Shown here: positions 7,874 through 64,000 of the stretch, piece after piece
How the letters are laid out: the number at the start of each line of letters is the position of its first letter
Numbering within the stretch: position 1 is the first letter of the stretch
Assembly (NCBI GenBank): GCA_024220505.1
Contig: JAKZZE010000021.1
Location: 1,016,080 to 1,080,079 of the forward strand
Reading direction: 5' to 3'
Origin: Rhizopus arrhizus
Lineage: Eukaryota > Mucoromycota > Mucoromycetes > Mucorales > Rhizopodaceae
Length of the DNA stretch: 64,000 bases
Notes under the pieces: generated by a model
What the model was told of the DNA's origin: nothing
The model's input: the letters and a program-made list of their open reading frames with translations, nothing else
The model's database searches: none
Translations under genes and position numbers: made by a program

Positions 7874-7883
7874 GATAAATATC
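7874..7883 (-). promoter_or_regulatory. 3' hairpin of LINE B
   Basis: On the minus strand GAT ATTT ATC can form a 3-bp hairpin followed by GCTTG, aligning with the 4-bp hairpin plus GCYTG in the other elements. It is a shorter and weaker example of the motif. Confidence 0.5.
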
Positions 7884-11644: not shown

Positions 11645-11646
11645 TA
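11642..11646 (-). promoter_or_regulatory. TAATG stop-start overlap between ORF1 and ORF2, copy B
   Basis: The ORF1 TAA (11646-11644) shares its final A with the first ORF2 ATG (11644-11642). A second in-frame ATG follows at once. Confidence 0.7.
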
Positions 11647-12630: not shown

Positions 12631-12770
12631 TTGGATGCAAACTTTCAGCAACGATTAAGCAACAAGCAGTAAAGATATCAGAATAAGAGTTGAACCAAAT
12701 AAAAGTATAGATCAAAAGGAGTCGATTGATGTAAAAAATTGTTGATGGATGGATAGATTTGGTGTAGATA

Positions 12771-18039: not shown

Positions 18040-18167
18040 TTCTAATGGACCAGCGTTAACAGCAAGGACGGAGGAATAGTTGTCAAAGTCATTCAGTTTA
18101 TTATTACTATAATCGTTTAATGGAAGGTTTTCATGTTCACGTAGTTGTACTTCCTGATCAACTACGT

Positions 18168-19160: not shown

Positions 19161-19230
19161 TGTTAACAAATTAAGACGTTTAGATAAGTCTTCCAGATTA
19201 AATTAAATACACAGCAGATAAAGAACACCG

Positions 19231-19242
19231 CAGATGCTACCA
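19231..19242 (-). promoter_or_regulatory. Primer binding site of Ty3/gypsy element 1
   Basis: On the minus strand TGGTAGCATCTG begins 2 nt after the 5' LTR. The TGGTAGC start is complementary to a tRNA ending in GCTACCA, as initiator Met tRNAs do; I cannot confirm which tRNA is used. Confidence 0.65.
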
Positions 19243-19244
19243 AA

Positions 19245-19625
19245 TGTGAAGAGCACTAACAGACAATTGTAGATGAGGATAGATATAAGGTAAGTCAACA
19301 GTTCTTCAAGACTTTGACTTAACACAAAAATAATAAAATGACATTAAAGATGATTCTTTATTTTATGAAAATGTGAATGCTATTTATATTCATGGATATT
19401 CAAATATTGTCTAAGGGATATAGTTCATTCTTTAATTTTTGCATTCTTTGCTTATGCCTAAGGTACAGTTGATACAGACGCGCCTTTTTCCTTTCCCGAT
19501 TTGGTATTGTTGGTTTGAACTTCCGTTTGTTCGGTCGGTACCTGAATGGAAGGTTATATTCAACTTCTATTGGCTGATTTGGCATTCCGCTGGTTGGTTG
19601 GGTTTCCTCTAGGGAGGTCTTGACA
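19245..19625 (-). repeat. 5' LTR of Ty3/gypsy element 1
   Basis: 381 bp, differing from the 3' LTR at about two sites (for example GACATTAAAG against GACGTTAAAG). It carries the same 75-codon open frame that ends pol in the other LTR. Confidence 0.95.
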
Positions 19626-19651
19626 ACGAAAGAAAATCTTCGGTAGTATAG
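19626..19651 (+). other. tRNA-Asp 5' flank end plus first 15 nt (remnant)
   Basis: ACGAAAGAAAA followed by TCTTCGGTAGTATAG (19637-19651), the same upstream bases and tRNA 15-mer as at 7250-7276. The tRNA stops at nucleotide 15, as at the other family-1 junctions. Confidence 0.75.
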
Positions 19652-40149: not shown

Positions 40150-41812
40150 GTACCAAACGGTGAATTAGAAAGAGAAGCAATTACAGTTTCTTACGAATCT
40201 TGTTGGAAGTAAGTGTCTTTTTTTTTTTACAAAAATATGTTTACTAATTTTTTTTTAGTTTTTTAAGACGTATTGGAGCTATTTCTACTCAACCAGAGGT
40301 TAGATGTCCTAAGTGCAGCGAAATAATGCGTGGTCCAACATGGAGAGCATCCCGTAACCAATACCAATTTCGTTGTTATAATCGTGCTGTGCATCCTACA
40401 GAAGTATCTCAATCTGTTACAAAAAGTTCGATGTTTTACCGCAAGAGATGCGACATCCGTATCACATTGAAGGTTATATTTCGCCTTACGATGAACCAAG
40501 AAAGATTTTCAACGATATACAGAGACCTTTCCATTGACTACAAGATAATATCCCAGCTATACCGAGATCTTATTGTTGTATTTGAAAGCGATTTGTTAAG
40601 ACATAATCCAATTATGTTAGGTAAGTTATAAATATTTCTTTTATATCTTTATTAATTTATGTGATATAGGTGGGCCAGGTGTAGATCATGTCCAAATAGA
40701 CGAATCGAAATTTGGTAAAAGAAAGTACCATAGAGGCCATCGAGTAGAAGGTGTATGGGTTTTGGGCATGGTCGAAGCTATTGCCCTAGGTACAAATAGG
40801 GTTGTGACAGTATCACAAGCAAACGGCGTTACTGAAACAAGATTGGTACCTCAGTTCAAAGCAGGCCGCAGGTTTTTATGCACTGTTCCAAACAGAAATG
40901 CACGCACCCTTATACCAATCATTCGAAAGTATGTTGTTCCAGGTACAACAATCCGAACGGATGGCTGGCGTGCCTATAGTGGCTTACACCCTAGGGAGCG
41001 GTACAATGCCCGCACTGGAGCGCTTCAAGTTGCAATGATGGATAGTGAGCAACATATTTACAGGCATCAAGTAGTTAATCATTCCCTTGGGTTTGCTACG
41101 GAAGATCAAGTTCACCAAAACAATACTCAAGGGATGATTAACACAAACATTATAGAAGGATTGTGGGCTGATGTCAAAAGAGAAATGCAAGCTAGGCATC
41201 GTACAAAGCTCGAGTGTCCTTATAGACTAATGGAATACTTGTGGCGTTACGAAAACCGTAACCAAATTTGGAGGGCTTTAGTGCGTGGTCTAGGGGAGGT
41301 ATCGTTTCCTGATATGCCAAGACAAAGAAACAGAGATGTAGAAGTTGAGAATTATCAACTCATAACAGAAGAAGAAGGAAGTGAAGAGGTGATGGAAGGT
41401 GATCCAACTGATGAAATGAACAACAACCACGAAATTGACAGTAAATATAAAAAAAATGTGATAGTCTTATATTTGTCTAAATTAACATAATAATAATTTC
41501 TGCATAATAGTCGATATTGGTGAAGACACAGATACGGATGATATTGATAATGATCCAGATTATCAAGCAGAAGTACAGTCACCTCCATTACGTCGCCGTA
41601 GGCTTAATAGAAGAACTGATGTTGCAGTTGTGATAGAAGACGAGAGCAGTGCTTTACCTAATTCTGACAACAATAGTGTCCTTTCGGTCGAACAAGCTAC
41701 AAGTAGATTACTGGAAGTTGTGCGAAACCGAGATATAGATAACTTTCAAGCAGCATCAGAAGCATTGTACAATGCTATGATCACAGAGCAAAGTACTTCA
41801 AACGCAACATAA
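40150..41812 (+). CDS. IS1595/Merlin-like (ISXO2-type DDE) transposase, spliced
   Basis: Four exons inferred: to 40208, 40259-40620, 40670-41440, 41511-41812. The introns 40209-40258, 40621-40669 and 41441-41510 (50, 49 and 70 nt) all have GT-AG ends, and splicing joins the frames exactly. The N-terminal part carries a zinc-ribbon-like RCPKC...RCYNR. The DDE domain has QIDESKFGKRKYHRGH (first D), IRTDGWRAYSGL (second D) and TNIIEGLW (E). An acidic and then Arg-rich C-terminal extension (GEDTDTDDIDNDPD, PPLRRRRLNRR) is added by the last exon. The start codon is not certain because the first exon opens upstream without a clear ATG. No break is seen in the catalytic part, so the enzyme could be functional. 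Expected role: cut-and-paste of an element bounded by the inverted repeats. Confidence 0.85.
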
Positions 41813-46301: not shown

Positions 46302-46375
46302 TGGTCACTACGAGGGTCGAACTCGCGACCTTGGCGTTATTAGCACCACGCTCTAACCAACTGAGCTAAGCGACC
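46302..46375 (-). tRNA. tRNA-Ile (anticodon AAT), intact
   Basis: 74 nt on the minus strand. The acceptor stem GGTCGCT/AGTGACC pairs with one G-T, the D stem is GCTC/GAGC, the anticodon arm TGGTG CTAATAA CGCCA gives anticodon AAT, and the T arm is GCGAG TTCGACC CTCGT. Discriminator A; no intron. A TTTT run lies about 30-40 nt downstream. It is the anchor of the family-2 array: its first 15 nt (GGTCGCTTAGCTCAG) are repeated, in the same orientation, at every element junction to the right. Confidence 0.96.
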
Positions 46376-46536
46376 AACTTGCGCTTCTCTTCCACTGCTT
46401 CTACATTTTCACCTTTGATGTGTATCCGCTGGTGTTTTTTCGTTCTCTTGTTCCTTTGTCTCCGAGGTTATCACAGTTAATGATCCATTGATCGCTTGTA
46501 TTTTAACCTTTATTTTAATAAAAACATAATTTTCGA
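46376..46536 (+). mobile_element. Short element (161 bp) between tRNA-Ile and LINE C
   Basis: It sits between the 5' end of the complete tRNA gene and a second copy of the tRNA 15-mer, so it is flanked by the same duplication as the other array members. It ends in TTTTAATAAAAACATAATTTTCGA and carries the shared 3' hairpin. It does not match the LINE C body, so it is a short SINE or a truncated related LINE. Confidence 0.6.
46482..46493 (+). promoter_or_regulatory. 3' hairpin of the short element
   Basis: GATC CATT GATC followed by GCTTG; a third stem version of the hairpin, with a C-G pair next to the loop. Confidence 0.65.
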
Positions 46537-46551
46537 CTGAGCTAAGCGACC
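46537..46551 (-). repeat. First 15 nt of tRNA-Ile, junction before LINE C
   Basis: CTGAGCTAAGCGACC on the plus strand, identical to 46361-46375. Confidence 0.9.
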
Positions 46552-46739
46552 ACCTTTCTTTCGCTCTTCCGACCGTTACACAAGGTATAGTACGCGTAAT
46601 CAACTTTGAACTCAAATATCTCTGCGAATACGATACATCCATCCACCGTTTTAACACCAAAATAATCGTCGTATTTTTCTCTACCAACTATATTTTTTTC
46701 AACTCGATTGCTGTATTTTCACCATTTTCGACATTTCCC

Positions 46740-47742
46740 ATGTCTCAACAATCTGGCTCCCCCATTTCGCTCATCTCGCAAGATGGAGTTGCAAATGTCG
46801 ACATTTCTAATGTTTCCAACATTCAAAACACCTTGCAGTATTTGTTAAATACTGTTAATACTCTACAACAAGAAGTTTCGACACATGCTAGTGTCATTGC
46901 TGAAACTCTCTGCTCTGCGTAGTGAAATGCGTCTTTGAAGGCGAAAATCGCTTCGCTTGAATCACAAATCTCCGCTGGCGCTGACATCAACAGTTCTTCC
47001 GCTTTCTCCTCTTTGGTTTCCGACCCGGCATCCCTACGTGCACCCCAAGATGCACCCCAAATGAACAAAACATCCTATAGTGCTATTGCTGCCAAGGCTG
47101 CTGCTACTGCTGCTATCACCTCTCGTCGCCCACCTAGCAAGAAGCGTAAGCTTGCTGCTAGTCGTCCCTTTCAACCTGTGGATCCCTCTGCTCCTCGTGG
47201 TTTTGAATACCTGTACTTGCACAGAAACCGCAAGCTGTCCCGTGCTGAAGTTAGGCGCAACCTGCGTCTACTTGGTCTTGATCTGTCCCGTGTCCTCGAC
47301 ATTTGCTTCCCTGGCCCAAAGGCCATTGGTCTCTTGGTCCACGTTCAATACAAGAAGAGGTGGTTTCTCTTCTCTCTGCTTCCAAGGTTCCGTTGGTTGA
47401 CGGTTTGATCCATTGGATCCTATCAACTTGGCGGATCCTGAGCTCCAGCATCTCTCATCGGCTGACAAGGCTAATGAATGTGCTGAGCTTCAGTTCACTC
47501 GCTGCTCCCGTGCTCTCTCTCGTCTTGGTGCTGGCCGTGCTCACCTAGTAGGTCCCGTAGGTAAGTACTTTTCTTCCAAGGGTTGGATCGATGAGGACTC
47601 TTTGAGTCAGATTCTGTCTTCCCTTCCCCCTTCCTCTTTTGCTTCTCGTGGTCGTGACCCAGGCGCTGCTTTCCGTGGTGACACGGTCATGTCAGATGCT
47701 TTGGCCTCTGATACCGCTAGTGCTGGATCACACTCATTATGA
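46740..47742 (+). pseudogene. LINE ORF1, copy C, frameshifted
   Basis: ATG at 46740 (MSQQSGSPISLISQDGVANV). The frame breaks near 46905-46925, where copy D and E sequence continues smoothly. It resumes in other frames from about 46935 to 47408 and 47413 to 47742. The coiled-coil and RRM-like parts are recognisable (RRNLRLLGLDLSRVLDICFP, IGLLVHVQY). The first 180 bp or so resemble copy D and the rest resembles copy E. Confidence 0.85.
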
Positions 47743-50700
47743 GTGAGGTCCAACACCTTTCTATAAGCCTTTGGAACGCGAATGGTCTTCGGACCACGAC
47801 CGTTCATGAGGTCTTGTCTCATTGTCTCTCATCTACTCTCCTTTTCATCACCGAGACTTGGCTTCTTTCCCCTTCTCTCCTTCCTACTGACTGGATGCAG
47901 TATCATGTGTATGGTGTTCCTGTACCTTCGGCCAACCGTGGTTCGATGGGTGTTACTGCTCTGGTCTCTCCTTCTTGTCCCTTTCCGGTCTCTCAACTTC
48001 CTCAGCGAATCGGTATACCCTTTCGTTGAAGGTCGGACCCTTTCGCATTCATTGTTTGTATGTACCTCCTCCTCTCTCATAACTCTCAATTTATAAATGT
48101 ACTCTCCTCCATTCCTTCGTTACCCAATACTTTTATTTGTGGCGACTTTAATGCTCGTCTTGGTGACCTCACTGGTGATGCATTGGTCTCTCCTCGTGGT
48201 GCTGCTATGGCTCGCTGGCTTGCTGATCGTTCTTTGACCGTTCTGAACGGCCCACTGGCTCATGGTATTCCTACCTGGTCGGGTTTCGTGATGATCGAGA
48301 GATGAGTAGCATCATTGACATGTTTTTAACCAACGCGTCATTGATGTCTCCTCGCCTTGACATCGCGTCTGACTTGTCTCTTGGTTCTGATCATCGTCTA
48401 CTCACGCTGTCTTTTTCATTTACTCAGTCAAGTGCCTCTGAGTCATTGTCTGATACATCTGATACCACACTACATCCTCGTCGATTATGGAACTTGTCCT
48501 CGCCTTGGTGAACCTGATCCATGTCAGCTGTATCAAGATACATTTCGTTCATCTTCCGCTCCTTTGCTCTCTCAACTGAAAAGGTTGGTTCAACACCCTC
48601 CTTCTTCACGTCCACCTATTGACGACCTCAACGCGTCGCTCAACAACATAATCTACAGCTCTCTTGACTCTTCTGTCGGTGATCGTCCTCCTCGTCCTTC
48701 GCATTGGAAAAAGTACTGGACACAACAACTTCAAGATGCTGCTGATTTCCGCAACCGGTGCTACCGTAGATGGCGTCGTGCCTTTGGTATTGACAAAGTC
48801 TATTGGTGGCATCAACATCAACAAGCAAATGTTTTCTTTCCGTCAAGCTGTGGCCAATGCCAAGCGTCTATCCTGGCAAGCATTCTGCAAGTCTCTTGAG
48901 TCTGACTTTACTAAAGCCATTTCAAAAGTAAAGCAACTCAATCGACGACATCAGTCATCCTCATCGTTCTCACATCCTGATGGTCCGTCAAAGGCAGTGG
49001 AGGTAATGGCTAGTCACTTGGCTTCGGTCTTTGATGGCAGTCTTCTACCTTCCACTCGCCCATCACCTCCTCCATCTTCATCCTCTCTTGGTTTGCCTCT
49101 TGGTCTCCATGGTTCGTCTCCTTCCGGTTCGTCTCCCTCTGGTTCCTCTGGTCCTACTGGTTCAAGTCACTCTTTGTTCACTCCTTTAACTATTCACATG
49201 TACATCGGTCAGCTCCCTACTCGTAAAGCTCCTGGTGCTGATCACATCAAGGCCGAGATGCTCAAGCCGATCAGTACTGACCTCTCCCACTTGCTGTCTT
49301 GGTTTTTTTCCTTGTGCTGTCAATGGTCTTACGTTCCTTCTCTCTGGCGGCATGCTCAAGTCTATCCGATCTTCAAGAAAGGTGATCCTTCGCTGCCGTC
49401 CAATTATCGACCGATCTCACTGACCTCGGTGTTCAGAAGCTCCTTGAGCTTAGTCTCGCTCCATGGTTGTCTTCTGTCTCTCCTCCCCTTGACCTCGCTC
49501 AAGGTGGTTTCCGTCCTCGTCGCTCAGCTCTTGATCAAGCCCTATGCCTTCATGAGCTGATGCAGTCTTACTATCGTCGATCTCATCGTTTTCCTGTGGT
49601 TGCATTCCTGGATATCAAGTCGGCCTACGATACCGTCGACCGGCGTGTTATCTGGGATGCTCTCTCTCGCTCTGGTGCTGGTTCCTCTCCTTGTTTGCCT
49701 CTCTTGGTCCATCTCTTTGATGATGTCTCGGTGTCTGTCTTGGTGTCCAATCACTCGTCCACTCCTTTTTCTCCTGTCACCGGTGTCTTGCAAGGTTTCT
49801 GTTCTCAGTCCTCACTTGTACTCGGTGTACATCAATACATTACCTGCTCTCCTTCGTCAAGTCGCTGCTCCTGCCACTCATTTGGTTCCCTCCTCTGGTC
49901 GCCCCGATGCTGGTATGGTCCCAGTCAACTCTCTCCTCTTTGCTGATGATGTCGCAGTCATTGGCTCGGCCAAGTCAGTCAAAGAGATGCTCAAGCTCTG
50001 TGAGGATCACTCGTTGTCTCTTGGATATCGCTGGAATCCTCTGAAGTGTGCGGTGCTCAACCACCCACTTCCTCTTCATCGTCATCTGGTTCAACCCAAC
50101 TAAGCCTCTATGGTACCTCTCTGCCTTTGGTCGACAAGTTCGTATACCTTGGTATGCCTTTCGTCAAGACTGGTCTCTCTGCTGCTTCGGTGCTTTCTCT
50201 TCGTTCTCCTGGTGTGCTTCAACTAATGGGTATTCTCAACAAGATTGGCGTGAATCGTCAAGGCTTTTCTCTGCTCCTGTGTGCTCGCATCTATGCCACA
50301 TTTGTCCGTCCAAAGTTCGAATATGGTCTCGCCATTTCCAAATTTTCTGCTGCTCAAGTGAAAGAAAATTGAACGTCTTCAAGATCGCTGCCTTCGTATG
50401 ATGGTAGGTGGTCATGCCACTTCTTCCACCACTATCATCAAGCATCTCACTACCTTGCCGTCTATGCATCACCGCATAGATGTGCTTACAACTCGTTTCT
50501 GCCTTCGTGCCCGCTCTCTTCCTGGTTCTTGCCTGCTGTCTCTGCTATCAACCACGCTACCTGTCTCACGTATCAAGGTCCATCTTGACAAGAATCCGCT
50601 CTTCTTGGCTTTGCCTTCTCCTCCTCCGTCCTCCGATGCTCGGCTCAAGACTTCTTTCGCCAGTATCGTGAGCGTCAACTCACTTCACTCGTCACCTCCA

Positions 50701-51123
50701 CTACCCAGGTTCTCCTACGCGCATGTCGCCCTGCTCTGGTGGTTGATCCCATCTTATACGTTCCTGCAAACCCGTGCAGAACGCTCTCTCTTGGTTCGTT
50801 GGCGTCTTGGCTGGCTGCCAGGTAAGCCTGAAGATTGTCCTTGTGGCCGTGATCGTCGTTCTCGTCGCCACTTCTTAGAATGCGATCTTATACCTTCGTT
50901 CCTTTGGTCTGATCTGCCTCGCTGTCCTCCTGGGTGCTATCCCATTGACTTTGCTCTTTCCTCGTTGCCTCTTGGTCGCTCAGCTCGCTGTCCTCCTTGG
51001 TGGTCATCACTCCTATTGATGCTTTCGCATATCCAACGTCTCTGTCGTCCTGATAGGAATCTTCCTATTGACTCTTCTCCTGGTGCCTTATGGTATTCTC
51101 GTTCTTCTCGTCACCCTGACTGA
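47739..51123 (+). pseudogene. LINE ORF2, copy C, multiple frameshifts
   Basis: The ATG overlaps the ORF1 TGA (ATGA, 47739-47742). APE endonuclease motifs (LWNANGL, ITETWLLSP, CGDFNARLGD, GSDHRLLTL), reverse transcriptase motifs (KAPGADHIKAEML, NYRPISLTS, FLDIKSAYDTVDRR, YSVYINTLPALL, FADDVAVIGSA) and a C-terminal CPCGRDRRSRRHFLEC cluster are all present. They fall in several frames because of single-base indels (for example near 48030, 48280, 48500, 49430 and 49800). The final stop is at 51121-51123. Catalytic FADD replaces the YADD of family 1. Confidence 0.88.
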
Positions 51124-51329
51124 AACCTTCTTTGTCTGTCTCCTGCTGATCCCCCACGGAAGTAAAGCCATCAAAGTTCCTTACCGTTGGGTTGTGACAG
51201 TAGGTCAGCTAAGTTGTGGAAGTAAGCTGCCATTCTCATCTTTTTCTTATCTTTTTTTTGGAGTTTTCTGTTTCTCAGGCTCCTTTTTTTGTACTTATTC
51301 TTTTTCTTTGTACTGGAAGATGCAATAAT

Positions 51330-51341
51330 GACTTTTTAGTC
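51330..51341 (+). promoter_or_regulatory. 3' hairpin of LINE C
   Basis: GACT TTTT AGTC followed by GCCTG, about 44 nt from the element end. Identical in copies D and E. Confidence 0.7.
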
Positions 51342-51385
51342 GCCTGCAATATATCTTCGTTATTTAATAAAAACAAATCTTTAAC

Positions 51386-51400
51386 CTGAGCTAAGCGACC
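51386..51400 (-). repeat. First 15 nt of tRNA-Ile, junction LINE C / SINE 2
   Basis: Identical 15-mer, CTGAGCTAAGCGACC on the plus strand. Confidence 0.9.
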
Positions 51401-51408
51401 AGGTATGT

Positions 51409-51480
51409 GGAGATAGTGCAAATGGTTAGAGCGTCTGCCTATCATTCGGGAGGTTGCATGTTCAACCCCTCGTATCCGCA
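51409..51480 (+). promoter_or_regulatory. tRNA-derived head of SINE 2 (pol III promoter)
   Basis: A and B boxes at tRNA spacing. The anticodon arm is degenerate and the acceptor ends (TGTGGAG...TATCCGCA) pair only partly. It differs from the Ser/Leu-like head of SINE 1. Confidence 0.7.
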
Positions 51481-51857
51481 TATCTACCCTTTCCGCACTC
51501 TAAACTGCATGTTCTGTTTCCGCGGTGCTTTAAGCACTGAATGATTTTGTCTTGCGTGTCGCGTTGAGCGGCAGCTTTGTATCTGTTCGCCTTCCTTCCC
51601 TCCATTGTTGTTTGGTGTTGTGCCGCTTGATAACACCTGGTTTTAATGCCACAAGTTGCTTCGGTGGTATGAGGTGTTTGTTGATCGTTGTCTGTGCGTT
51701 GCCTGGATTCCCAGCCCCGGGATTAAAGAAGCACCGTTCTGTCTCTGCCTCAAGTCTTCGTCTATGGTTTCTGCTTCAAGATTGTAATTCGCTCCTTCCC
51801 CCATTCCCCCCTAATAACTTGTATGCTTTCCAGGATGTTCCTGTGGATTGCAATAAT

Positions 51858-51869
51858 GATTTGTTAATC
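51858..51869 (+). promoter_or_regulatory. 3' hairpin of SINE 2
   Basis: GATT TGTT AATC followed by GCCTG. Relative to the LINE hairpin, C-G has become T-A with both sides changed. Confidence 0.72.
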
Positions 51870-51907
51870 GCCTGCATATAATCCAATAAAATATAAAAAT
51901 CTTTAAC

Positions 51908-51922
51908 CTGAGCTAAGCGACC
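51908..51922 (-). repeat. First 15 nt of tRNA-Ile, junction SINE 2 / LINE D
   Basis: Identical 15-mer. Confidence 0.9.
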
Positions 51923-52120
51923 ACCTTTCTTTCGCTCTTCCGACCGTTACACAAGGTAGACGACGCGTAATCAACTTTGAACCCGATTATCTCACCCAAT
52001 ACTATACATCCATCAACCGTTTTACTATCAAAAAATTCGCCTAATTTTTCTCTACAAGATATATTTTTTTCAAGTTCATAACTCCTTTTCTTGCAATTTT
52101 CGACATCTTCGACATTACCC

Positions 52121-53106
52121 ATGTCAACTAATCCCGGTCTTAACATTTCACCCATCTCAACAGATGGCGTTGCAAATGTCGACATTTCCAATATTCCAAA
52201 TATTCAAGAAACTTTACACTATTTGTTAAACACCGTTACTGCACTACAACAAGAAGTTTCGACACATGCTAGTGTCATTGCTGAACTTTCTGCTCTGCGC
52301 ACTGAAAATGCGTCTTTAAAATCCAAAATTGCGACTTTAGAAGCGCAATTGGCTTCATCTTCTTCTCCTTCTGTCGCTTCTGCTGTTTCTGCCTCTGTTC
52401 CTGCTGCTAAACCAACTTCTTTGGCTGCACAAAATGTTTCGCCTGCTGTCCAAGCTACATACTCTGCTGTTGCTGCTCGTCCTGCTGTTCGTTCTCCATC
52501 TAAAAAGCGCAAATTGGCTGCTAGTCGCGCTTTCCAACCCATTGATCCCGATGCCCCACGCGGTTTTAAATACTTGTATCTCAATCGCAATCGTAAGTTA
52601 ACTCGCTCTGAGATTCGAAGAAATCTTCGCTTGCTTGGTCTGGACTTGTCTCGTGTCCTCGATGTCTGTTTCCCTGGCCCCAAGGCTATTGGTCTTTTGG
52701 TCCATGTTCAGTATGTGCCAGAGGTGATCTCTCTGCTCGCTACTGCAAAGGTTCCGTTGGTTGACGGTTTTGATCCCCTGGATCCCGTCAACTTGGCTGA
52801 TCCTGAGCTTCAGCACCTCTCCCTATCTGCAAAGGCGGATAAGTGTGCTGACTTCACTACTCCCGCTGTTGTCGTGCTCTTTCTCGTCTTGGTGCTGGTC
52901 GTCCCCATTTGGTCGCCCCAGTAGGTAAGTATTTCTCTTCCCATGGCTGGATCGATGACGACTCCTTGAGTCAGATTCTTTCTGAGCTTCCCCCCTCCTC
53001 TTTTGCTTCTCGTGGTCGTGACCCAGGCGCTGCTTTCCGTGGTGACACGGTCATGTCAGATGCTTTGGTCTCTGATTCCGCTAGTGCTGGATCACACTCA
53101 TTATGA
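52121..53106 (+). pseudogene. LINE ORF1, copy D, one frameshift
   Basis: ATG at 52121 (MSTNPGLNISPISTDG). Open for about 265 codons, including the coiled coil (LHYLLNTVTALQQEV...ELSALRTENASLKSKIATLE), the basic SKKRKLAAS patch and the RRM-like region with FDPLDPVNLADPELQHLS. The frame shifts near 52850-52915 and the last 65 codons continue in another frame to 53106. Total length equals family-1 ORF1 (about 328 codons). Confidence 0.87.
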
Positions 53107-53425
53107 GTGAGGTCCAACACCTTTCTATAAGCCTTTGGAACGCGAATGGTCTTCGGACCACGACCGTTCATGAGGTCTTGTCTCATTGTCTCTCCTCTAC
53201 TCTCCTTTTCATCACCGAGACTTGGCTTCTTTCCCCTTCGCTCCTTCCTACTGACTGGATGCAGTATCATGTGTATGGTGTTCCTGTACCTTCGGCCAAC
53301 CGTGGTTCGATGGGTGTTACTGCTCTGGTCTCTCCTTCTTGTCCCTTTCCTGTCTCTCAACTTCCTTCACCGAATCGGTATACCCTTTCGTTGAAGGTCG
53401 GACCCTTTCGCATTCATTGTTTGTA

Positions 53426-55066
53426 CAGTGGTTGGAATAATTGTTCGGATGTTTTGCAATTTTATACTTTTCGCTTTGTATCTCTGCAATCAGATAGGAT
53501 AGAGCTACTTACAATACCTCATTAGAAAGCAACAGTTGTCATGTATAACATATAGAAATTTAAGGTTATGGGATTACTTCCATATATAGTAAGGTCAAAT
53601 TGCGTCAAGCATATGCATTCGAACATTTTTCCAACTCAATGCATTCTATAATGATGATATCATTGGCGTTTCTGACGTCACAAATACAGCATTACAAAAT
53701 GACGTAATAATGAAATAGCGCTTTTGCTTTTAGTCAGAGCTTAAAAATATTAAATAAGGCTGGATTTTGCAGTGTTTCCCTTCTATCTTGTACAGCCTAT
53801 ACTTCTTTATATCATGGTACACCTTTTATCTCGTAGCAAGCAAGAAAGCATCCGGTCGTTGTGGAAAAAGGGTTTATCATACTCAGAAATCATGAAAACG
53901 AGTTTCCAGGAGTATCAAGGTCCACTTTGAGCAAGTACAAGAACTTGTATGCACCTAACGTACTCGAGGTCATGCTGGTAGAAAGACTACTATAAGCTCA
54001 ACGACAAAGAATTACTTGAAGAGAGAACTTATAAATGGTTCACTTCAAACAGCAAAGAGCGTATGGTCATATTTAAACAGTATTGGCTATAAGATAGGCT
54101 ATTTTGGTACAGTAAAAATGCTTCACAACATGGGTTTCAGTACCCAAATTAAGAAGAAAAAACCTCTCCTCAAAAATCACACATGGAAGCTAGACTAAAA
54201 TGGGCTAAAGCTCACAAAGATTGGACAGAAGATGACTGGAGGCGTATGGTGTTCTCTGATGAGACCAAGATTAATGTTTGGGGCTCGGATGGTTGTAAAT
54301 ACTTTTGGAGAAGACCTGGTGACAAATTACAACTTCATGATCTTGACCTTACAGTCAAAGAGGAGCTGGCAGTGTGATGCTTTGGGGTTGTATGACATGG
54401 GATGGGTCTGGATATGCCTGCGCAATTGAGGACGGTACTATGAAGGCATCAGATTATGTTCATATCCTGTCAACTACACTGATGGACAGTCTGAACTACT
54501 ATGGCTACAAGCAGGAGGCTATCTATTTTCAACAAGATAACGATCCTAAGCACACATTGAGCTTTCTCGTGCTTGGTTTAAAGAAAATGCGTTTAAAGAA
54601 GAGCACACTTCAATTGGCCAGCTCAAAGTCCTGATTTGAATCCTATAGAGCATCTCTGGCACCATCTAAAGTTGAGACTGAGTTTGTACGAAGGTAGGGC
54701 TAAAGGAGTGCATGATCTCTCGTCTAGAACCGAGAAAGAATGGAACTCTTTTACCAGAGAGCAATGCCAAGCATATATCAAGAGTATGCCAGCTCGTTGT
54801 AGAGCAGTCATTAAAGCTAAAGGCGGTTATACACGATATTAAATAAAAGATGATTCAGTTGGAAAAATTGTTCGAATGCATATGCTTGACGCAATTTGAC
54901 CTTACTATATATGGAAGTAATCCCATAACCTTAAATTTTATATGTTATACATGACAACTGTTGCTTTCTAATGAGGTATGTAAGTAGCTCTATCCTATCT
55001 GATTGCAGAGATACAAAGCGAAAAGTATAAAATTGCAAAACATCCGAACAATTATTCCAACAACTG
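53426..55066 (+). mobile_element. Tc1-like DNA transposon with long (about 212 bp) inverted repeats
   Basis: Starts CAGTGGTTGGAATAATTG and ends in the near-perfect complement. TA duplications lie at 53424-53425 and 55067-55068. The inverted repeats (53426-53637, 54856-55066) match almost base for base. Removing it restores the LINE D sequence seen in copies C and E, so it is younger than LINE D. Confidence 0.95.
53814..54842 (+). pseudogene. Tc1-type DD34E transposase, frameshifted
   Basis: ATG at 53814 (MVHLLSRSKQESIRSLWKKG), a helix-turn-helix-like start. The frame breaks near 53900 and continues in pieces (54016-54198, 54183-54377, 54374-54634, 54636-54842). Catalytic residues are visible: D in VFSDETKINVWG, D in YFQQDNDPKHT and E in SPDLNPIEHLW. 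At least four frame changes make it inactive. The nearly perfect inverted repeats suggest it could still be moved in trans. Confidence 0.88.
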
Positions 55067-58000
55067 TATGTCCCTCCTCCTCTTTCCAACTCTGATTTCA
55101 TTAATGTGCTTTCCTCCATCCCCTCTTTACCCAATACTTTTATTTGTGGCGACTTTAATGCTCGTCTTGGCGACCTCACTGGTGATGCATTGGTCTCTCC
55201 TCGTGGTGCTGCTATGGCTCGCTGGCTAGCTGATCGCTCCTTGACCGTTCTGAACGGCCCACTGGCTCATGGTATTCCTACCTGGGTCGGGTTTCGTGAT
55301 GATCGAGAGATGAGTAGCATCATTGACATGTTTTAACAAACGCGTCATTGATGTCTCCTCGCCTTGACATCGCGTCTGACTTGTCTCTTGGTTCTGACCA
55401 TCGTCTGCTTACGCTCTCATTCTCATTTGCTCTGTCAAGTGCCTCTGAGTCTTTATCTGATATACCTAATGCTACCATTCATCCTCGTCGACTATGGAAC
55501 TTGTCTCGCCTTGGTGAACCTGATCCATGTCAGCTGTATCAAGATACTTTTCGTTCGTCCTCTGCTCCTTTGCTTTCTCAACTGAAAAGGTTGGTTCAAC
55601 ACCCTCCTTCTTCACGTCCGCCTATTGACGACCTCAACGCGTCGCTCAACTCAATCATCTACCGTTCTCTTGACTCTTCTGTCGGTGATCGTCCGCCTCG
55701 TCCATCCCATTGGAAAAAGTACTGGACACAACAACTCCAAGATGCTGCTGACTTCCGCAACAGGTGCTACCGTAGATGGCGTCGTGCCTTTGGCATTGAC
55801 AAAGCCTATTGGTGGCATCAACATCAACAAGCAAATGTTTCTTTTCGTCAAGCTGTTGCCAATGCCAAACGTCTCTCTGGCAAGCATTTTGCAAGTCTCT
55901 GAGTCTGACTTTACGAAAGCCATCTCTAAAGTAAAACAACTCAAACGTCGTCACCTCACCTCATCATCATTCACTCATCCTGATGGTCCGGCTACGGCAG
56001 TGGAAGTAATGGCTCGTCACTTGGCTTCTGTTTATGATGGTCACTTGCTTCCATCTGTCCGTCCGCCTGCTCCTCCTGATCCGTCTTCTCTTGGTTTGCC
56101 CTTTGGTCCTCCTGGTTCGTCTCCTTTGGTTGTCTCCCCTGGTGCTGCTACTCATACTTCTATGTCTAATACTCATTCCACTCATTTCAACACTTCAATA
56201 TTCTCGCCTGCAACATTGGCTTCACTTATCGGTCAACTGCCTACGCGCAAAGCTCCTGGTGCTGATCACATCAAGGCCGAGATGCTCAAGCCGATCAGTA
56301 CTGACCTGTCGTTCATTCTTTCCTGGTTCTTCACTCTATGCTGGCAATGGTCCTATGTTCCTTCTCTCTGGCGACATGCTCAAGTCTATCCTATCTTCAA
56401 GAAAGGTGATTCATCACTTCCCTCAAACTACCGTCCAATATCACTTACATCTTATTCCGCAAGCTACTTGAGCTGTCGCTCTCTCCATGGTTGTCCTCTG
56501 TCTCTCCTCCCCTTGACCTCGCTCAAGGTGGTTTCCGTCCTCGTCGATCTGCTCTAGATCAGGCTCTCTGTCTTCATGAGCTAATACAATCGTACTACCG
56601 TCGCTCCTCGGTTTCCTGTGGTGGCATTCCTGGATATCAAGTCGGCCTACGATACTGTCGACCGGCGAGTTATCTGGGATGCTCTCTCTCGCTCTGGTGC
56701 GTCAAGTCCGTTCCTGTCTCTCTTGGTCCATCTGTTTGATGATGTCTCGGTGTCTGTCTGGTGTCAAACCATTCTTCTGCTGCTTTCTCTCCTGTCACCG
56801 GTGTCTTGCAAGGTTCTGTTCTCAGTCCTCACTTGTACTCGGTGTACATCAACATCTACCCTCCTTACTTCGTCAAGTCGCTGCTCCTGCCACCCATTTG
56901 GTTCCCTCCTCTGGTTCGCTGATGCTGGTATGGTCCCAGTGAACTCTCTCCTCTTTGCTGACGATGTCGCAGTCATTGGCTCGGCAAAGTCAGTCAAAGA
57001 GATGCTCAAGCTTTGCGAACAACATTCACTGTCTCTGGGTTATCGATGGAACCCAACAAAATGTGCGGTGCTCAACCATCCACCATTGTCATCTTCTTCG
57101 TCTTCCTCTGATCGCCTCCAGTTGTACGGTACTCCTCTGCCTTTGGTGGATCAGTTCGTATATCTTGGAGTGCCCTTCGTCAAGTCTGGTCTCTCTGCTC
57201 CTTCTTGGTTTCTCTCGGTCTCCTGGTGTCATCAAGGTTATGGCTATCCTGAACAAGATTGGTGTCAATCGTCAAGGTTTCTCTCTTTGCTCTGCTCACG
57301 CATCTATGCCACCTTTGTTCGCCCGAAGTTTGAGTATGGCCTAGCCATATCTCGGCTGACGGCAACTGATCTCAAGTCTATAGAAGGTTTACAAGATCGC
57401 TGCCTTCGTCTCTTGGTTGGTGGTCATCGACTCTTCCACCATTATCATCAAGCATCTCACTACCTGCCATCTATGCGCCATCGTGTAGATGTGCTTACAA
57501 CTCGTTTCTGCCTTCGTGCCCGTTCTCTTCCTGCTTCTTGCCTGCTATCTCTGCTATCGTCAACGCTGCCTGTCTCTCGAATCAAGATTCATCTTGAAAA
57601 GAATCCGCTTTTCTTGCTTTGCCTTCTCCTCCTCCGTCCTCCGATGCTCGGCTCAAGACCTTCTTTCGCCAGTATCGTGAGCGTCAAGTCATCTCTGTCA
57701 CCTCCACTACCCAGGTTCTCCTACGCGCATGTCGCCCTGCTCTGGTGGTTGATCCCGTCTTATACGTTCCTGCTACTCGTGCAGAACGCTCTCTCTTGGT
57801 TCGTTGGCGTCTTGGCTGGCTGCCAGGTAAGCCTGAAGACTGTCCTTGTGGACGTGATCGTCGCTCTCGTCGTCACTTTCTCGAGTGTGATTTGATCCCG
57901 TCTTTCCTTTGGTCTGACCTTCCTCGCTGTCCTCCTGGGTCTACCCTATAGACTTTGCTCTTTCCTCGTTGCCTCTTGGTCGCTCAGCTCGCTGTCCTCC

Positions 58001-58329
58001 TTGGTGGTCATCTCTCTTGTTGATGCTCTGGCATATCAACGTCTGTGCCGTCCTGATAGCTTCTATGCTATTGACTCTTCCTGGTGCCTCTTGGTATTCT
58101 AGCTCTTCTCGTAACTCTGACTGAAACCCTTCTTTGTCTGTCTCCTGCTGATCCCCCACGGAAGTAAAGCCATCAAAGTTCCTTACCGTTGGGTTGTGAC
58201 AGTAGGTCAGCTAAGTTGTGGAAGTAGGCAGTCAATCTGATCTTTTACTTTCTTTTTTTGGAGTTTTTCTGTTTCTCAGGCTCCTTTTTTTGTACTTATT
58301 CTTTTCTTTGTACTTGAAGATGCAATAAT

Positions 58330-58341
58330 GACTTTTTAGTC
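58330..58341 (+). promoter_or_regulatory. 3' hairpin of LINE D
   Basis: GACT TTTT AGTC plus GCCTG, as in copy C. Confidence 0.7.
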
Positions 58342-58381
58342 GCCTGCAAATATCTTCCTATTAAAAAAACAAATCTTTAAC

Positions 58382-58396
58382 CTGAGCTAAGCGACC
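58382..58396 (-). repeat. First 15 nt of tRNA-Ile, junction LINE D / LINE E
   Basis: Identical 15-mer. Confidence 0.9.
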
Positions 58397-58585
58397 ACCT
58401 TTCTTTCGCTCTTCCGACCGTTACACAAGGTATAGTACGCGTAATCAACTTTGAACTCAAATATCTCTGCGAATACGATACATCCATCCACCGTTTTAAC
58501 ACCAAAATAATCGTCGTATTTTTCTCTACAAACTATATTTTTTTCAACTCGATTGCTGTATTTTTCACCATTTTCGACATTTCCC

Positions 58586-59579
58586 ATGTCTCAACAATCT
58601 GGCTCCCCCATTTCGCTCATCTCGCAAGATGGAGTGGCAAATGTCAACATTCCAAACCCTTCTGACATGCAACAAGCTTTGCAATATTTATTGCACAACT
58701 TCCAAACCCTCCAGCAACGTGTTTCAACACACGATGACTTGTTTGCTGAACTGACTGCTTTACGCAGTGAAAATGCTACTTTGAAGGCGAAAATCGCCTC
58801 ACTCGAATCTCAACTTTCCGCTGGCGCTGACGTCAACAGTTCTTCCGCTTTTCCTCTTTGGCTTCCGACCCGGACCATACGTGCGCCCCAAGATGCACCC
58901 CAAACGAACAATGCAACCTATAGTTCTATTGCTGCCAAGGCTGCTGCTACTACTGCTACTACTACCCGTCGCCCACCTAGCAAGAAGCGAAAGCTTGCTG
59001 CTAGTCGTCCATTCCAACCAGTTGACCCTTCTGCTCCTCGTGGTTTTGAATACCTGTACTTCGAAACCGCAAGCTGTCCCGTGCTGAAATTAGACGCAAC
59101 CTGCGTTTACTTGGTCTTGATCTTTCCCGTCTTGGACATCTGCTTCCCTGGCCCAAAGGCATTGGTCTCTTGGTCCATGTTCTTTATAAAGAAGAGGTGA
59201 TCTCTCTTCTCTCTGCTGCCAAGGTTCCGTTGGTTGATGGTTTTGATCCTTGGATCCTATCAACTTGGCGGATCCTGAGCTCCAGCATCTTTCGTCGGCT
59301 GACAAGGCTAATGAATGTGCTGAGCTCCAGTTCACTCGCTGCTCCCGTGCTCTCTCTCGTCTTGGTGCTGGCCGTGCTCACCTAGTGGGTCCCGTAGGTA
59401 AGTACTTTTGTTCCAAGGGTTGGCTTGATGACGACTCTTTGAGTCAGATTCTGTCCTCCCTTCCCCCTTCCTCTTTTGCTTCTCGTGGTCGTGACCCAGG
59501 CGCTGCTTTCCGTGGTGACACGGTCATGTCAGATGCTTTGGTCTCTGATTCCGCTAGTGCTGGATCACACTCATTATGA
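58586..59579 (+). pseudogene. LINE ORF1, copy E, frameshifted
   Basis: ATG at 58586 (MSQQSGSPISLISQDGVANV). The N-terminal coiled coil differs from C and D (NPSDMQQALQYLLHNFQTL). Open to about 59060; the frame then breaks around YLYFETASC and again near 59250 before finishing in the ...SDSASAGSHSL frame at 59579. The RRM-like and FDP-type motifs are recognisable. Confidence 0.85.
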
Positions 59580-62500
59580 GTGAGGTCCAACACCTTTCTA
59601 TAAGCCTTTGGAACGCGAATGGTCTTCGGACCACGACCGTTCATGAGGTCTTGTCTCATTGTCTCTCCTCTACTCTCCTTTTCATCACCGAGACTTGGCT
59701 TCTTTCCCCTTCTCTTCTTCCTACTGACTGGATGCAGTATCATGTGTATGGTGTTCCTGTACCTTCGGCCAACCGTGGTTCGATGGGTGTTACTGCTCTG
59801 GTCTCTCCTTCTTGTCCCTTTCCTGTCTCTCAACTTCCTTCACCGAATCGGTATACCCTTTCGTTGAAGGTCGGACCCTTTCGCATTCATTGTTTGTATG
59901 TTCCTCCTCCTCTTTCCAACTCTGAATTTGTAAATGTACTCTCCTCCATACCCTCCTTACCCAATACTTTTATTTGTGGCGACTTTAATGCTCGTCTTGG
60001 TGACCTCACTGGTGATGCATTGGTCTCTCCTCGTGGTGCTGCTATGGCTCGCTGGCTTGCTGATCACTCCTTGACCGTTCTGAACGGCCCACTGGCTCAT
60101 GGTATTCCTACCTGGGTCGGGTTTCGTGATGATCGAGAGATGAGTAGCATCATTGACATGTTTTAACAAACGCGTCATTGATGTCTCCTCGCCTTGACAT
60201 CGCGTCTGACTTGTCTCTTGGTTCTGACCATCGTCTGCTGACCTTGTCTTTCTCATTTGCTCAGTCAAGTGCCCTGGTCAGTCTGAAACATCTGATGCTA
60301 CCATTCATCCTCGTCGATTATGGAACTTGTCTCGCCTTGGTGAACCTGATCCATGTCAGCTGTATCAAGATACATTTCGCTCGTCTGCTCCTTGCTTTCT
60401 CAACTGAAAGGTTGGTTCAACACCCTCCTTCTTCACGTCCGCCTATTGACGACCTCAACGCGTCGCTCAACTCAATCATCTACCGCTCTCTTGACTCTTC
60501 TGTCGGTGATCGTCCACCTCGTCCATCCCATTGGAAAAAGTACTGGACGCAACAACTTCAAGATGCTGCTGACTTCCGCAACAGGTGCTACCGTAGATGG
60601 CGTCGTGCCTTTGGTATTGACAAAGTCTATTGGTGGCATCAACATCAACAAGCGAATAGTTCTTTCCGTCAAGCTGTTGCCACTGCCAACGTCTCTCTTG
60701 GCAAGCATTTTGCAAGTCCCTCGAATCTGACTTTACGAAAGCCATCTCTAAAGTAAAACAACTCAAACGTCGTCACCTCACTCATCATCATTCACTCATC
60801 CTGATGGTCCGGCTACGGCAGTGGAAGTAATGGCTCGTCACTTGGCTTCTGTTATGATGGTCACTTGCTTCCATCTGTCCGTCCGCCTGCTCCTCCTGAT
60901 CCGTCTTCTCTTGGTTTGCCCTTTGGTCCTCCTGGTTCGTCTCCTTTGGTTGTCTCCCCTGGTGCTGCTACTCATACTTCTAGTCTAACTCATTCCACTC
61001 ATTTCAACACTTCAATATTCTCGCCTGCAACATTGGCTTCACTTATCGGTCAACTGCCTACGCGCAAAGCTCCTGGTGCTGATCACATCAAGGCCGAGAT
61101 GCTCAAGCCGATCAGTACTGACCTGTCATTCCTTCTTTCCTGGTTCTTTACACTCTGCTGTCAATGGTCCTATGTTCCTTCTCTCTGGCGACATGCTCAA
61201 GTCTATCCTATCTTCAAGAAAGGTGATTCATCACTTCCCTCAAACTACCGTCCAATATCACTCACATCAATATTCCGCAAGCTACTTGAGCTGTCGCTCT
61301 CCATGGTTGTCCTCTGTCTCTCCCCTCTTGACCTCGCTCAAGGTGGTTTCCGTCCTCGTCGATCTGCTCTAGATCAGGCTCTGTGTCTACATGAGCTAAT
61401 ACAATCGTACTACGTCGATCTCATCATCGTTTCCTGTGGTGCATTCCTGGATATCAAGTCGGCCTACGATACCGTCGACCGGCGTGTTATCTGGGATGCT
61501 CTCTCTCGCTCTGGTGCTGGTTCCTCTCCTTGTTTGCCTCTCTTGGTCCATCTCTTTGATGATGTCTCGGTGTCTGTCTTGGTGTCAATCACTCGTCCGC
61601 TCCTTTTTCTCCTGTCACCGGTGTCTTGCAAGGTTCTGTTCTCAGTCCTCACTTGTACTCGGTGTACATCAACATTACCTTCCTTACTCTCGTCAAGCTG
61701 CTGCTCCTGCTACTCATTTGGTTCCCTCTCTGGTTCTGCTGCTGCTGGTATGGTCCCAGTCAACTCTCTCCTCTTTGCTGACGATGTCGCAGTCATTGGC
61801 TCGGCAAAGTCAGTAAAGAGATGCTCAAGCTTGTGAAGAACATTCGCTGTCTCTGGGTTATCGATGGAACCCAACAAAATGTGCGGTGCTCAACCACCCA
61901 CCATCATCGTCTTCCTCGTCTTCTCTTCCGTCTTTGTCTGATCGCCTCCAGTTGTACGGTACTCCTCTGCCTTTGGTGGATGAGTTCGTATACTTGGAGT
62001 GCCCTTCGTCAAGTCTGGTCTCTCTGCTCCTTCCTTGGTTTCTCTCGGTCTCCTGGTGTCCTCAAGGTCATGGCTATTCTAAACAAGATTGGTGTCAACC
62101 GTCAAGGTTTCTCTCTGCTGCTCTGCTCTCGACTGTATGCTACCTTTGTTCGCCCGAAGTTTGAGTATGGCCTAGCCATATCTCGGCTGACGGCAACTGA
62201 TCTCAAGTCTATAGAAAATCTACAAGATCGCTGTCTCCGTCTCTTGGTTGGTGGCATCGTACCTCTTCTACCACCATTATCAAGCATCTCACACTGCCAT
62301 CTATGCGTCATCGTGTAGATGTGCTTACACTCGCTACTGTCTTCGTGCTCGTTCTCTTCCTGCTTCTTGCCTGCTGTCTCTCTTGTCATCAACGCTTCCA
62401 GTGTCACTAATCAAGATCCATCTTGAAAAGAATCCGCTCTTCTTGGCTCTGCCTTCTCCTCTTCCGTCCTCCGATGCTCGGCTCAAGACCTTCTTTCGCC

Positions 62501-62956
62501 AGTATCGTGAGCGTCAAGTCACTTCACTCGTCACCTCCACTACCCAGGTTCTCTTACGCGCATGTCGCCCTGCTCTGGTGGTTGATCCCATCTTATACGT
62601 TCCTGCTACTCGTGCAGAACGCTCTCTCTTGGTTCGTTGGCGTCTTGGCTGGCTGCCAGGTAAGCCTGAAGATGTCCTTGTGGACGTGATCGTCGCTCTC
62701 GCCGTCACTTCTCGAGTGTGATTTGATCCCGTCCTTCCTTTGGTCTGATCTGCCTCGCTGTCTCCTGGGTCTACCCTATAGACTTTGCTCTTTCCTCGTT
62801 GCCTCTTGGTCGCTCAGCTCGCTGTCCTCCTTGGTGGTCTTCTCTCTCTGTATGCTCTGGCACATCCAACGCCTCTGCCGTCCTGATAGCTTCTATGCTA
62901 TTGACTCTTCTCCTGGTGCCTTATGGTATTCTAGCTCTTCTCGTAACTCTGACTGA
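59576..62956 (+). pseudogene. LINE ORF2, copy E, multiple frameshifts
   Basis: The ATG overlaps the ORF1 stop (ATGA, 59576-59579). The endonuclease is open for 196 codons to the TAA at 60164-60166 shared with copy D. Later frames carry KAPGADHIKAEML, NYRPISLTSIFRKLLEL, IKSAYDTVDRR, FADDVAVIGSA, WRLGWLPGKPED and the ending ALWYSSSSRNSD at 62956. Same domain order as copies C and D. Confidence 0.87.
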
Positions 62957-63165
62957 AACCCTTCTTTGTCTGTCTCCTGCTGATCCCCCACGGAAGTAAA
63001 GCCATCAAAGTTCCTTACCGTTGGGTTGTGACAGTAGGTCAGCTAAGTTGTGGAAGTAGGCAGTCATCTGATCTTTTACTTTATCTTTTTTTTGGAGTTT
63101 TTCTGTTTCTCAGGCTCCTTTTTTTGTACTTATTCTTTTTTCTTTGTACTTGAAGATGCAACAAT

Positions 63166-63177
63166 GACTTTTTAGTC
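63166..63177 (+). promoter_or_regulatory. 3' hairpin of LINE E
   Basis: GACT TTTT AGTC plus GCCTG. Confidence 0.7.
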
Positions 63178-63221
63178 GCCTGCAATATATCTTCGTATTA
63201 AATAAAAACAAAATCTTTAAC

Positions 63222-63236
63222 CTGAGCTAAGCGACC
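63222..63236 (-). repeat. First 15 nt of tRNA-Ile, junction LINE E / LINE F
   Basis: Identical 15-mer. Confidence 0.9.
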
Positions 63237-64000
63237 ACCTTTCTTTCGCTCTTCCGACCGTTACACAAGGTAGACGACGCGTAATCAACTTTGAACCCGA
63301 TTATCCACCCAATACTATACATCCATCAACCGTTTTACTATCAAAAAATTCGCCTAATTTTTCTCTACAAGATATATTTTTTTCAAGTTCATAACTCCTT
63401 TCTTGCAATTTTCGACATCTTCGACATTACCCATGTCAACTAATCCGGTCTTAACATTTCACACCATCTCAACAGATGGCGTTGCAAATGTCGACATTTC
63501 CAATATTCCAAATATTCAAGAAACTTTACACTATTTGTTAAACACCGTTACTGCACTACAACAAGAAGTTTCGACACATGCTAGTGTCATTGCTGAACTT
63601 TCTGCTCTGCGCACTGAAAATGCGTCTTTAAAATCCAAAATTGCGACTTTAGAAGCGCAATTGGCTTCATCTTCTTCTCCTTCTGTCGCTTCTGCTGTTT
63701 CTGCCTCTGTTCCTGCTGCTAAACCAACTTCTTTGGCTGCACAAAATGTTTCGCCTGCTGTCCAAGCTACATACTCTGCTGTTGCTGCTCGTCCTGCTGT
63801 TCGTTCTCCATCTAAAAAGCGCAAATTGGCTGCTAGTCGCGCTTTCCAACCCATTGATCCCGATGCCCCACGCGGTTTTAAATACTTGTATCTCAATCGC
63901 AATCGTAAGTTAACTCGCTCTGAGATTCGAAGAAATCTTCGCTTGCTTGGTCTGGACTTGTCTCGTGTCCTCGATGTCTGTTTCCCTGGCCCCAAGGCTA
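63237..64000 (+). mobile_element. Family-2 LINE, copy F, cut by window end
   Basis: Leader of the copy D type with only a few indels relative to D. The array continues beyond the window. Confidence 0.92.
63433..64000 (+). pseudogene. LINE ORF1, copy F, partial
   Basis: The ATG at 63433 corresponds to copy D. One base is missing early (TAATCCGG against TAATCCCGG) and one is changed or gained shortly after, so the first codons are disturbed. From about 63531 to the window end the sequence is identical to copy D, giving the same coiled coil and basic patch. It may be intact in reality if the early indels are consensus errors. Confidence 0.8.

Follow-up and report, generated by a model that had tools for sequence, protein, structure and literature searches.

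Several retrotransposons lacking long terminal repeats (non-LTR) have been described that insert in or near tRNA genes. The cited sections describe NeSL-1_TV, LIN15_SM, and LIN25_SM as specific for the genes of tRNA-Pro, tRNA-Arg, and tRNA-Glu, respectively (PMC4640811). In Dictyostelium, TRE5-A is reported 40–54 bp upstream of tRNA genes and TRE3-A 40–150 bp downstream (PMC5911963, PMC5006619), and Dp_NLTR-A of D. purpureum, a non-LTR element with an RNase H domain, 2–6 bp upstream of the tRNA 5' end (PMC5006619). The target given for the zebrafish element Dewa is the spacer of tRNA-Leu (PMC3706591). Dada DNA transposons enter the A box itself, at tRNA nucleotides (nt) 8–13, and their families differ in the tRNA that they target; the Perkinsus families at tRNA-Ile and tRNA-Tyr duplicate TAGCTC (PMC8869645, PMC3706591). 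Here we describe an array of long and short interspersed nuclear elements (LINEs and SINEs) on a tRNA-Ile gene of Rhizopus arrhizus, in a stretch of 64,000 nt (contig JAKZZE010000021.1, positions 1,016,080–1,080,079; hereafter, the window). The window is the terminal part of contig C14 in the one genome analyzed, an assembly of 50.26 Mb in 41 contigs.

Taking these systems as the cited sections portray them, the Rhizopus elements share something with each. NeSL and LIN elements are likewise specific for tRNA genes, but the NeSL-related clade has a restriction-like endonuclease, whereas the Rhizopus elements carry an apurinic/apyrimidinic endonuclease (APE). TRE5-A and TRE3-A are also LINEs with APE and reverse transcriptase (RT) that use many tRNA genes, and TRE5 lies upstream and in opposite orientation, as here; however, in place of its 40–54 bp offset we find 0 bp upstream, with the cut at a single fixed position inside the gene. 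Dp_NLTR-A likewise almost touches the tRNA 5' end; here there is no offset (0 bp), 14 bp of the gene itself are repeated, and Pfam finds no RNase H. Dewa, which is placed in the Tx1 clade, is likewise a target-specific LINE linked to tRNA genes, but targets a spacer and not the A box. Dada uses the same A box, but with a DDE transposase and a 6-bp duplication as against the RT and APE proteins found here. LINEs linked to tRNA genes are already known (NeSL/LIN, Dewa, TRE, and NLTR-A); a clade of APE-type LINEs combining a cut at tRNA position A14 with several targets and attendant SINEs was not found in print. A literature search, with Repbase and Dfam outside it, returned no APE-type LINE that cuts at A14 with a 14-bp, gene-restoring duplication. 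The initial annotation of this DNA knew of no described element with exactly this target, and none was found in the literature searched; tRNA-specific LINEs of the NeSL group are reported (PMC4640811, cited section).

The array on tRNA-Ile and its elements

The initial annotation had noted that a 15-mer, CTGAGCTAAGCGACC, the reverse complement of tRNA-Ile nt 1–15, ends a tRNA gene and recurs at five further sites. All six positions proved to be exact matches (46361, 46537, 51386, 51908, 58382, and 63222, all on the plus strand); no additional copy was found in the window at up to two mismatches, a tolerance at which shuffled sequences average 0.10. ARAGORN and Rfam agree on a tRNA-Ile(AAU) gene on the minus strand at 46301/2–46375/6. 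The array reads as follows:

46302–46375, minus: intact tRNA-Ile(AAU) gene at the array start (ARAGORN, Rfam), one of nine identical full-length copies in the genome
46362–46375: 14-bp target (tRNA nt 1–14), first copy, within the tRNA-Ile gene
46376–46537, plus: short non-autonomous element, ∼161 bp, related 3' hairpin, tail TTTCGA(C)
46538–46551: 14-bp tRNA-Ile target copy
46552–51386, plus: LINE family 1 copy, frames interrupted
51387–51400: 14-bp tRNA-Ile target copy
51401–51908, plus: SINE1, 3' tail as in LINE family 1
51909–51922: 14-bp tRNA-Ile target copy
51923–58382, plus: LINE family 1 copy, interrupted at 53426–55066 by an insert of 1.6 kb
58383–58396: 14-bp tRNA-Ile target copy
58397–63222, plus: LINE family 1 copy
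63223–63236: 14-bp tRNA-Ile target copy
63237–64000, plus: LINE family 1 copy, truncated by the contig end (the window end is the C14 end)

This insert ends in inverted arms, 90 and 75 nt long, is flanked by TA, and looks Tc1/mariner-like by eye.

A second LINE family lies on the minus strand of the window; its second open reading frame (ORF2) is 52% identical to that of family 1 over 1150 amino acids (aa). In both families, ORF2 carries Exo_endo_phos_2, an APE-type endonuclease, upstream of the RT domain RVT_1, both above the Pfam cut-offs. Together with a defined 3' tail and a target-site duplication, this is the makeup of an APE-type LINE. The Pfam scan of ORF2 at E up to 0.001 found no RNase H and no other endonuclease, and matches to ORF1 stayed below the cut-off. 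Both frames are open in several of the LINE copies fetched from the genome. No relatives of ORF2 were found in viral contigs, and a sequence search of the PDB (E up to 0.1) returned nine reverse transcriptases (R2, L1, and generically named ones), which point to no particular clade.

The SINEs have the same 3' tail, hairpin, and target as the LINE, the shared 3' end that characterizes tRNA-derived SINEs parasitic on a LINE. Their heads contain tRNA-like letters by eye; apart from the tRNA-Ile gene, neither Rfam nor ARAGORN reported a match in the window. LINE1, SINE1, SINE2, SINE3, and the short element have a common 3' hairpin in which both sides of the 4-bp stem vary (CG/UA; AU/UA/CG). Among its 24 cells, 21 pair, and the three that do not are all from LINE2, where the loop is two bases shorter. 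The number of paired cells and the covariation score each beat 500 of 500 shuffles, and single-sequence folding places the stem in the minimum-energy structure of five of the six sequences and, for the short element, in the centroid.

Junctions and target genes across the genome

The exact 15-mer occurs 95 times in the genome (79 on the plus and 16 on the minus strand) on nine contigs; a backward control pattern gave none. We read the junctions at 54 of these sites, 44 sorted by script (six in the window and 38 on C3, C9, and C12) and 10 by eye. At 51 of the 54, a tRNA-Ile gene or an element tail stands on one side and an element start on the other, as first described for the window; the other three are two empty tRNA-Ile genes on C25 and one undecided case (C24:212027). 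Left flanks of the script-sorted sites were CTTTAAC-type tails (37), the tRNA-Ile gene (four), or TTTCGA tails (three), and right flanks were full LINE starts (27), SINE2 (six), SINE1 (four), the 161-bp short element (two), or cut LINE or SINE starts (five). The by-eye sites, which had short flanks, comprised five with a tail on the left and a LINE start on the right and five tRNA-Ile genes, two of which adjoin a LINE, two (on C25) are empty, and one (C24:212027) lies beside sequence matching SINE1 in its first letters only. An element tail directly precedes the 14-mer at each of the 45 non-gene Ile sites read.

Viewed from the element, a tRNA 14-mer was found at 73 of 74 LINE family 1 5' ends (genome scan, up to two mismatches). 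By coordinates, 62 lie close behind an exact Ile 15-mer and one more touches such a 15-mer; one follows an Ile 15-mer plus an extra base, one follows a tRNA-Ile gene shortened by 3 nt, five lie at Ala, and three at Phe. As in R1 and R2, essentially all copies of family 1 occupy one target position. Nor are the 3' flanks unrelated, a pattern that would have spoken against the initial annotation: among the 100 tail 12-mers listed (of 144 in the genome), on which the onward counts rest, 78 run into a 14-mer of the TGAGCTA type or of Pro, namely the Ile 15-mer (55), another 14-mer with TGAGCTA (22, including an untraced variant on C17), or Pro (one). The other 22 are within chance level (58 matches to a backward pattern in the whole genome). 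At C17 (L082, G000:C17:315511) a SINE2-type tail is followed by the untraced 14-mer TGAGCTACAGTAGC, perhaps another tRNA target.

The repeated unit at all six tRNA targets is tRNA nt 1–14, which for tRNA-Ile are the last 14 letters of the 15-mer. In each of 19 zero-mismatch Ala rows the 14-mer is preceded by C, where all 11 Ala genes have T; at three Phe and three Lys sites it is preceded by A, where the one Phe and four Lys genes read have C. Because this base disagrees with the Ala, Phe, and Lys genes, the leading C of the 15-mer belongs to the element. It follows the element, and therefore the duplication is 14 bp long and the cut in the sense strand lies between nt 14 and 15, not between nt 15 and 16 as first proposed; a 15-bp duplication is ruled out. 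The repeat ends at A14 at each traced target, with TAGCTCA in Ile, Ala, Phe, and Lys and ..TA in Asp and Pro. The duplicate rebuilds the tRNA gene: no letter differs among the 11 Ala genes, and full-length Ile genes that are occupied match the empty C25 genes exactly.

ARAGORN named the target genes as Ile, Phe, Asp, Lys, Pro, and Ala, which makes tRNA-Ile one of at least six tRNA targets. The initial annotation was right that tRNA-Ile is hit; its place as the only target is ruled out by the other five tRNAs, and a second LINE family in the window inserts in the same manner. The DNA as it stands shows the junctions with their 14-bp repeats, the six targets, the tails held in common, and both intact genes and empty sites. 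Family 1 ends occur at tRNA-Ala(AGC), at genes that ARAGORN identified and that match letter for letter (11 of 11 at 100% full length). Four adjoin a full LINE start (in one case with five additional letters in between), three a SINE start (two of these broken off 55 bp in by another repeat), and two a cut LINE or SINE, so that at least nine of 11 directly adjoin a recognized element; two (C34 and C29) adjoin diverged sequence. Family 1 ends are also found at tRNA-Phe(GAA) (L051), and at tRNA-Lys(UUU) (L106, L107) the tail is of family 1 type and one gene adjoins a SINE1 start. The Phe and Lys copies may be a third lineage.

The tRNA-Ile query returned 11 matches, nine of them 100% full length: nine identical full genes, one gene shortened by its junction, and a tRNA-Val gene (L039). 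Seven of the 10 tRNA-Ile genes adjoin an element, two are empty, and for the remaining one additional 15-mers lie at a distance of 8 kb. The empty pair on C25 still carries the 15-mer, and the 3' flank there is identical in 91 of 100 letters to its filled C9 counterpart. These two genes (G000:C25:412779 and 420230) stand in opposite orientation, ∼7.5 kb apart, with matching flanks. Genes for Lys on C23 and Asp on C12 also look empty.

Family 2 and its hitchhiker SINE3 lie at the other end of the window:

1–7261, minus: second LINE family 2 copy (7206–7261 plus 1–4584), split by a CACTGCA-ended insert at 4585–7205
7262–7275: 14-bp tRNA-Asp target behind the SINE3 tail
7276–7818, minus: SINE3, LINE family 2-type tail
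7819–7832: 14-bp tRNA-Asp target (nt 1–14) behind the LINE family 2 tail
7833–12761, minus: LINE family 2 copy with ORF1 (336 aa) and ORF2 (1188 aa), 5' end beyond 12761
19637–19650: third tRNA-Asp 14-mer of the window, behind a CTTTCGTC tail

In the window, family 2 ends in TCTTCGTC, followed by TATACTACCGAAGA, which is nt 1–14 of tRNA-Asp(GUC). Genome-wide, exact tRNA-Asp nt 1–18 was found at 12 places and the exact 14-mer at 33, with two matches to a backward 14-mer pattern. The three of these 12 places that were read each proved to be a tRNA-Asp gene; SINE3 adjoins two of them, and the third is apparently empty. Other family 2 copies carry nt 1–14 of tRNA-Pro(AGG), a 14-mer present at 50 places (genes L108 and L109), and further copies carry one of three untraced 14-mers (L096/L098, L102, and L103). 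A probe upstream of the tail placed family 2 copies ∼5 kb apart. With respect to the A box, family 1-type tails mostly meet TAGCTCA (Ile, Ala, Phe, and Lys), and family 2-type targets end in T13–A14 (Asp and Pro).

How the arrays may have formed

These observations are very probably accounted for by a clade of APE-endonuclease LINEs that enter tRNA genes by target-primed reverse transcription, leave a gene-restoring 14-bp duplication, and lend their machinery to SINEs. A first nick would open the tRNA sense strand after A14, within the A box, and the freed 3' end (nt 1–14) would prime copying of the LINE or SINE RNA, leaving the element antisense to the gene. A second nick at the first tRNA nucleotide would duplicate the 14 bp and restore a complete tRNA gene, with the element as its new 5' flank. 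Non-autonomous elements bearing the LINE's 3' tail and hairpin would use the same machinery. Repeat hits on the same gene would be possible because the target is restored, so that the array extends at the tRNA end; the arrays probably grow by such re-insertion. The order of nicks, the specificity of the enzyme, and the direction of growth are what we infer from the finished products. The core of the earlier proposal, a LINE with SINE hitchhikers inserting antisense within the tRNA-Ile A box, with the repeated stretch as target DNA, is supported by the junctions.

Two sets of junction details bear on growth and on target choice. By eye, some 5' junctions show a short stretch that separates the 14-mer from the start of the element and that has the letters of a different target: CGACC and CGACCGACC, as in Ile, at the Ala sites L043 and L049; GAAGCC, as in Pro, in L102; and, in the Pro gene L108, AAGAACGC, with which an untraced 14-mer ends. 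These letters could stem from RNA begun inside the donor's upstream 14-mer and would then record jumps between tRNA species. The second set concerns a repeat ending in CACTGCA:

Window 4585–7205: CACTGCA(AATAAT/CCCAAT)-ended repeat
L028, L042, L045, L047, L052, L057, L061, L063, L065: the same repeat
L068, L069, L075, L077, L078, L080, L081, L084: the same repeat, continued

The fetched DNA and the window together hold 27 ends of this repeat, 21 of them with a listed 14-mer within 400 nt. The fetched DNA was selected around 14-mers, and proximity as such reflects that selection; the narrow range of distances does not. In 20 of these 21 cases (18 distinct loci), the end lies 55–59 bp beyond the 14-mer, the odd one being a doubled end at 68 bp. 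The repeat stands 55–57 bp upstream of the tRNA-Ala gene itself at three of the 18 loci (L061, L063, and L069), and at the other 15 the 14-mer stands behind an element tail; one end lacking a listed 14-mer is 56 bp from a tRNA-Val gene (L039). The repeat would have landed ∼55 bp upstream of a tRNA gene and later been pushed outward as LINEs and SINEs entered, a spacing behind element tails that fits growth of the array at its tRNA end. The repeat looks DNA-transposon-like, and its fixed distance to tRNA genes is near that reported for TRE5.

Could the arrays instead be mainly satellites, in which unequal crossing over at the 14-mers and elements copied a single insertion or a small number of them, with little repeated targeting? 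Very similar elements do run head to tail on several contigs, and an array on C41 that mixes Ala and Ile requires recombination or a misjoin. However, LINEs, SINEs, and cut copies follow one another in varying order with different 5' junctions, the first elements differ between tRNA genes, and pieces of donor targets were apparently carried to new targets, all of which makes a satellite origin improbable. Scarcely credible is the idea that the 14-mer belongs to the element end and that homology guides the element into tRNA genes, or that it arose from a tRNA. It draws on the presence of the same 15-mer at every family 1 copy in the window, but elsewhere this tail is followed by the 14-mer of Ala, Phe, or Lys, and the two empty tRNA-Ile genes on C25 have the 15-mer without any element; an element-owned 15-mer, which the initial annotation had named as one threat to its reading, is refuted on both counts.

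A further question is what the insertion machinery recognizes. Targeting through bound RNA polymerase III (Pol III) factors, the mechanism put forward for TRE5 and Ty3, and not through recognition of A-box DNA by the endonuclease, would agree with the facts that all nameable targets are tRNA genes, that the CACTGCA repeat keeps a fixed distance to tRNA 5' ends, and that growth seemingly occurs at whole tRNA genes. We nevertheless find it a rather doubtful account, as insertions fall on one exact base of the gene, and the tRNAs used by the two tail types differ for the most part in their A-box letters, suggesting sequence recognition; exceptions to this division exist. Pol III factors and A-box recognition may also act together.

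A number of findings weigh against targeted insertion by two A-box-specific families. A family 1-type tail meets a Pro 14-mer on C8 (by coordinates), and the Lys copies pair a family 1-type tail with a LINE-like start closer to family 2, so the split between families and targets is not clean. Four 14-mers have not been traced to any tRNA gene (L082, L096/L098, L102, and L103), and one LINE 5' end (C37:1346624) has no tRNA 14-mer. The tRNA-Ile gene on C18 (L058, G000:C18:837393) lost 3 nt at its LINE junction and is a case of imprecise insertion that damaged the gene. The C41 array (G000:C41:1957010–1968306, L048–L050) starts at tRNA-Ala and carries the Ile 14-mer at a junction further out, which local insertion cannot yield; it is a product of recombination between arrays or of an assembly misjoin. 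No filled site was aligned base by base with its own empty site on both flanks, and a search with the C25 5' flank found C25 only, not the far end of the C9 array. As for the hairpin, two of the five measures, pairs changed and pair types, were reached by 339 and 293 of 500 shuffles, respectively, and single-sequence fold energies were mostly no better than those of shuffles.

On balance we lean, with some reserve, toward a broader proposal: a whole LINE clade specialized on a self-healing site, cut after the invariant A14 and at nt 1, whose subfamilies would re-target tRNA species by A-box letters, carry along pieces of old targets, support several SINE cohorts, and fill nearly every gene of some isoacceptors. 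Such a LINE could strike essential genes repeatedly without destroying them, the duplicated bases being those split off, and long arrays could accumulate beside essential genes with little apparent damage. Target choice varies naturally, across at least six tRNA genes and two related families, while the geometry of the cut stays the same, a setting in which target recognition by a LINE can be tested by sequence comparison and nicking assays. LINE or SINE DNA now directly borders the 5' end of the restored tRNA genes, a point of relevance to the dependence of Pol III genes on upstream sequence.

Other repeats near tRNA 14-mers

An LTR retrotransposon occupies window 13525–19625 (LTRs at 13525–13906 and 19244–19625) and encodes a 1501-aa pol with RT, RNase H, and integrase. 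It starts 11 bp beyond a tRNA-Asp 14-mer, and the same first letters occur 11 bp beyond a tRNA-Lys 14-mer (L074); it may be another tRNA-targeted element. A further repeat, starting TGAC(G/A)AAGTCGGATTTTGG, begins 8–9 bp beyond tRNA-Ile, tRNA-Val, and one untraced 14-mer:

Window 13522, minus: TGAC(G/A)AAGTCGGATTTTGG repeat
L032:1583, L039:1582, and L103: the same repeat

Finally, window 40621–41487 contains an open reading frame with a DDE_Tnp_IS1595 (ISXO2-like) transposase domain.

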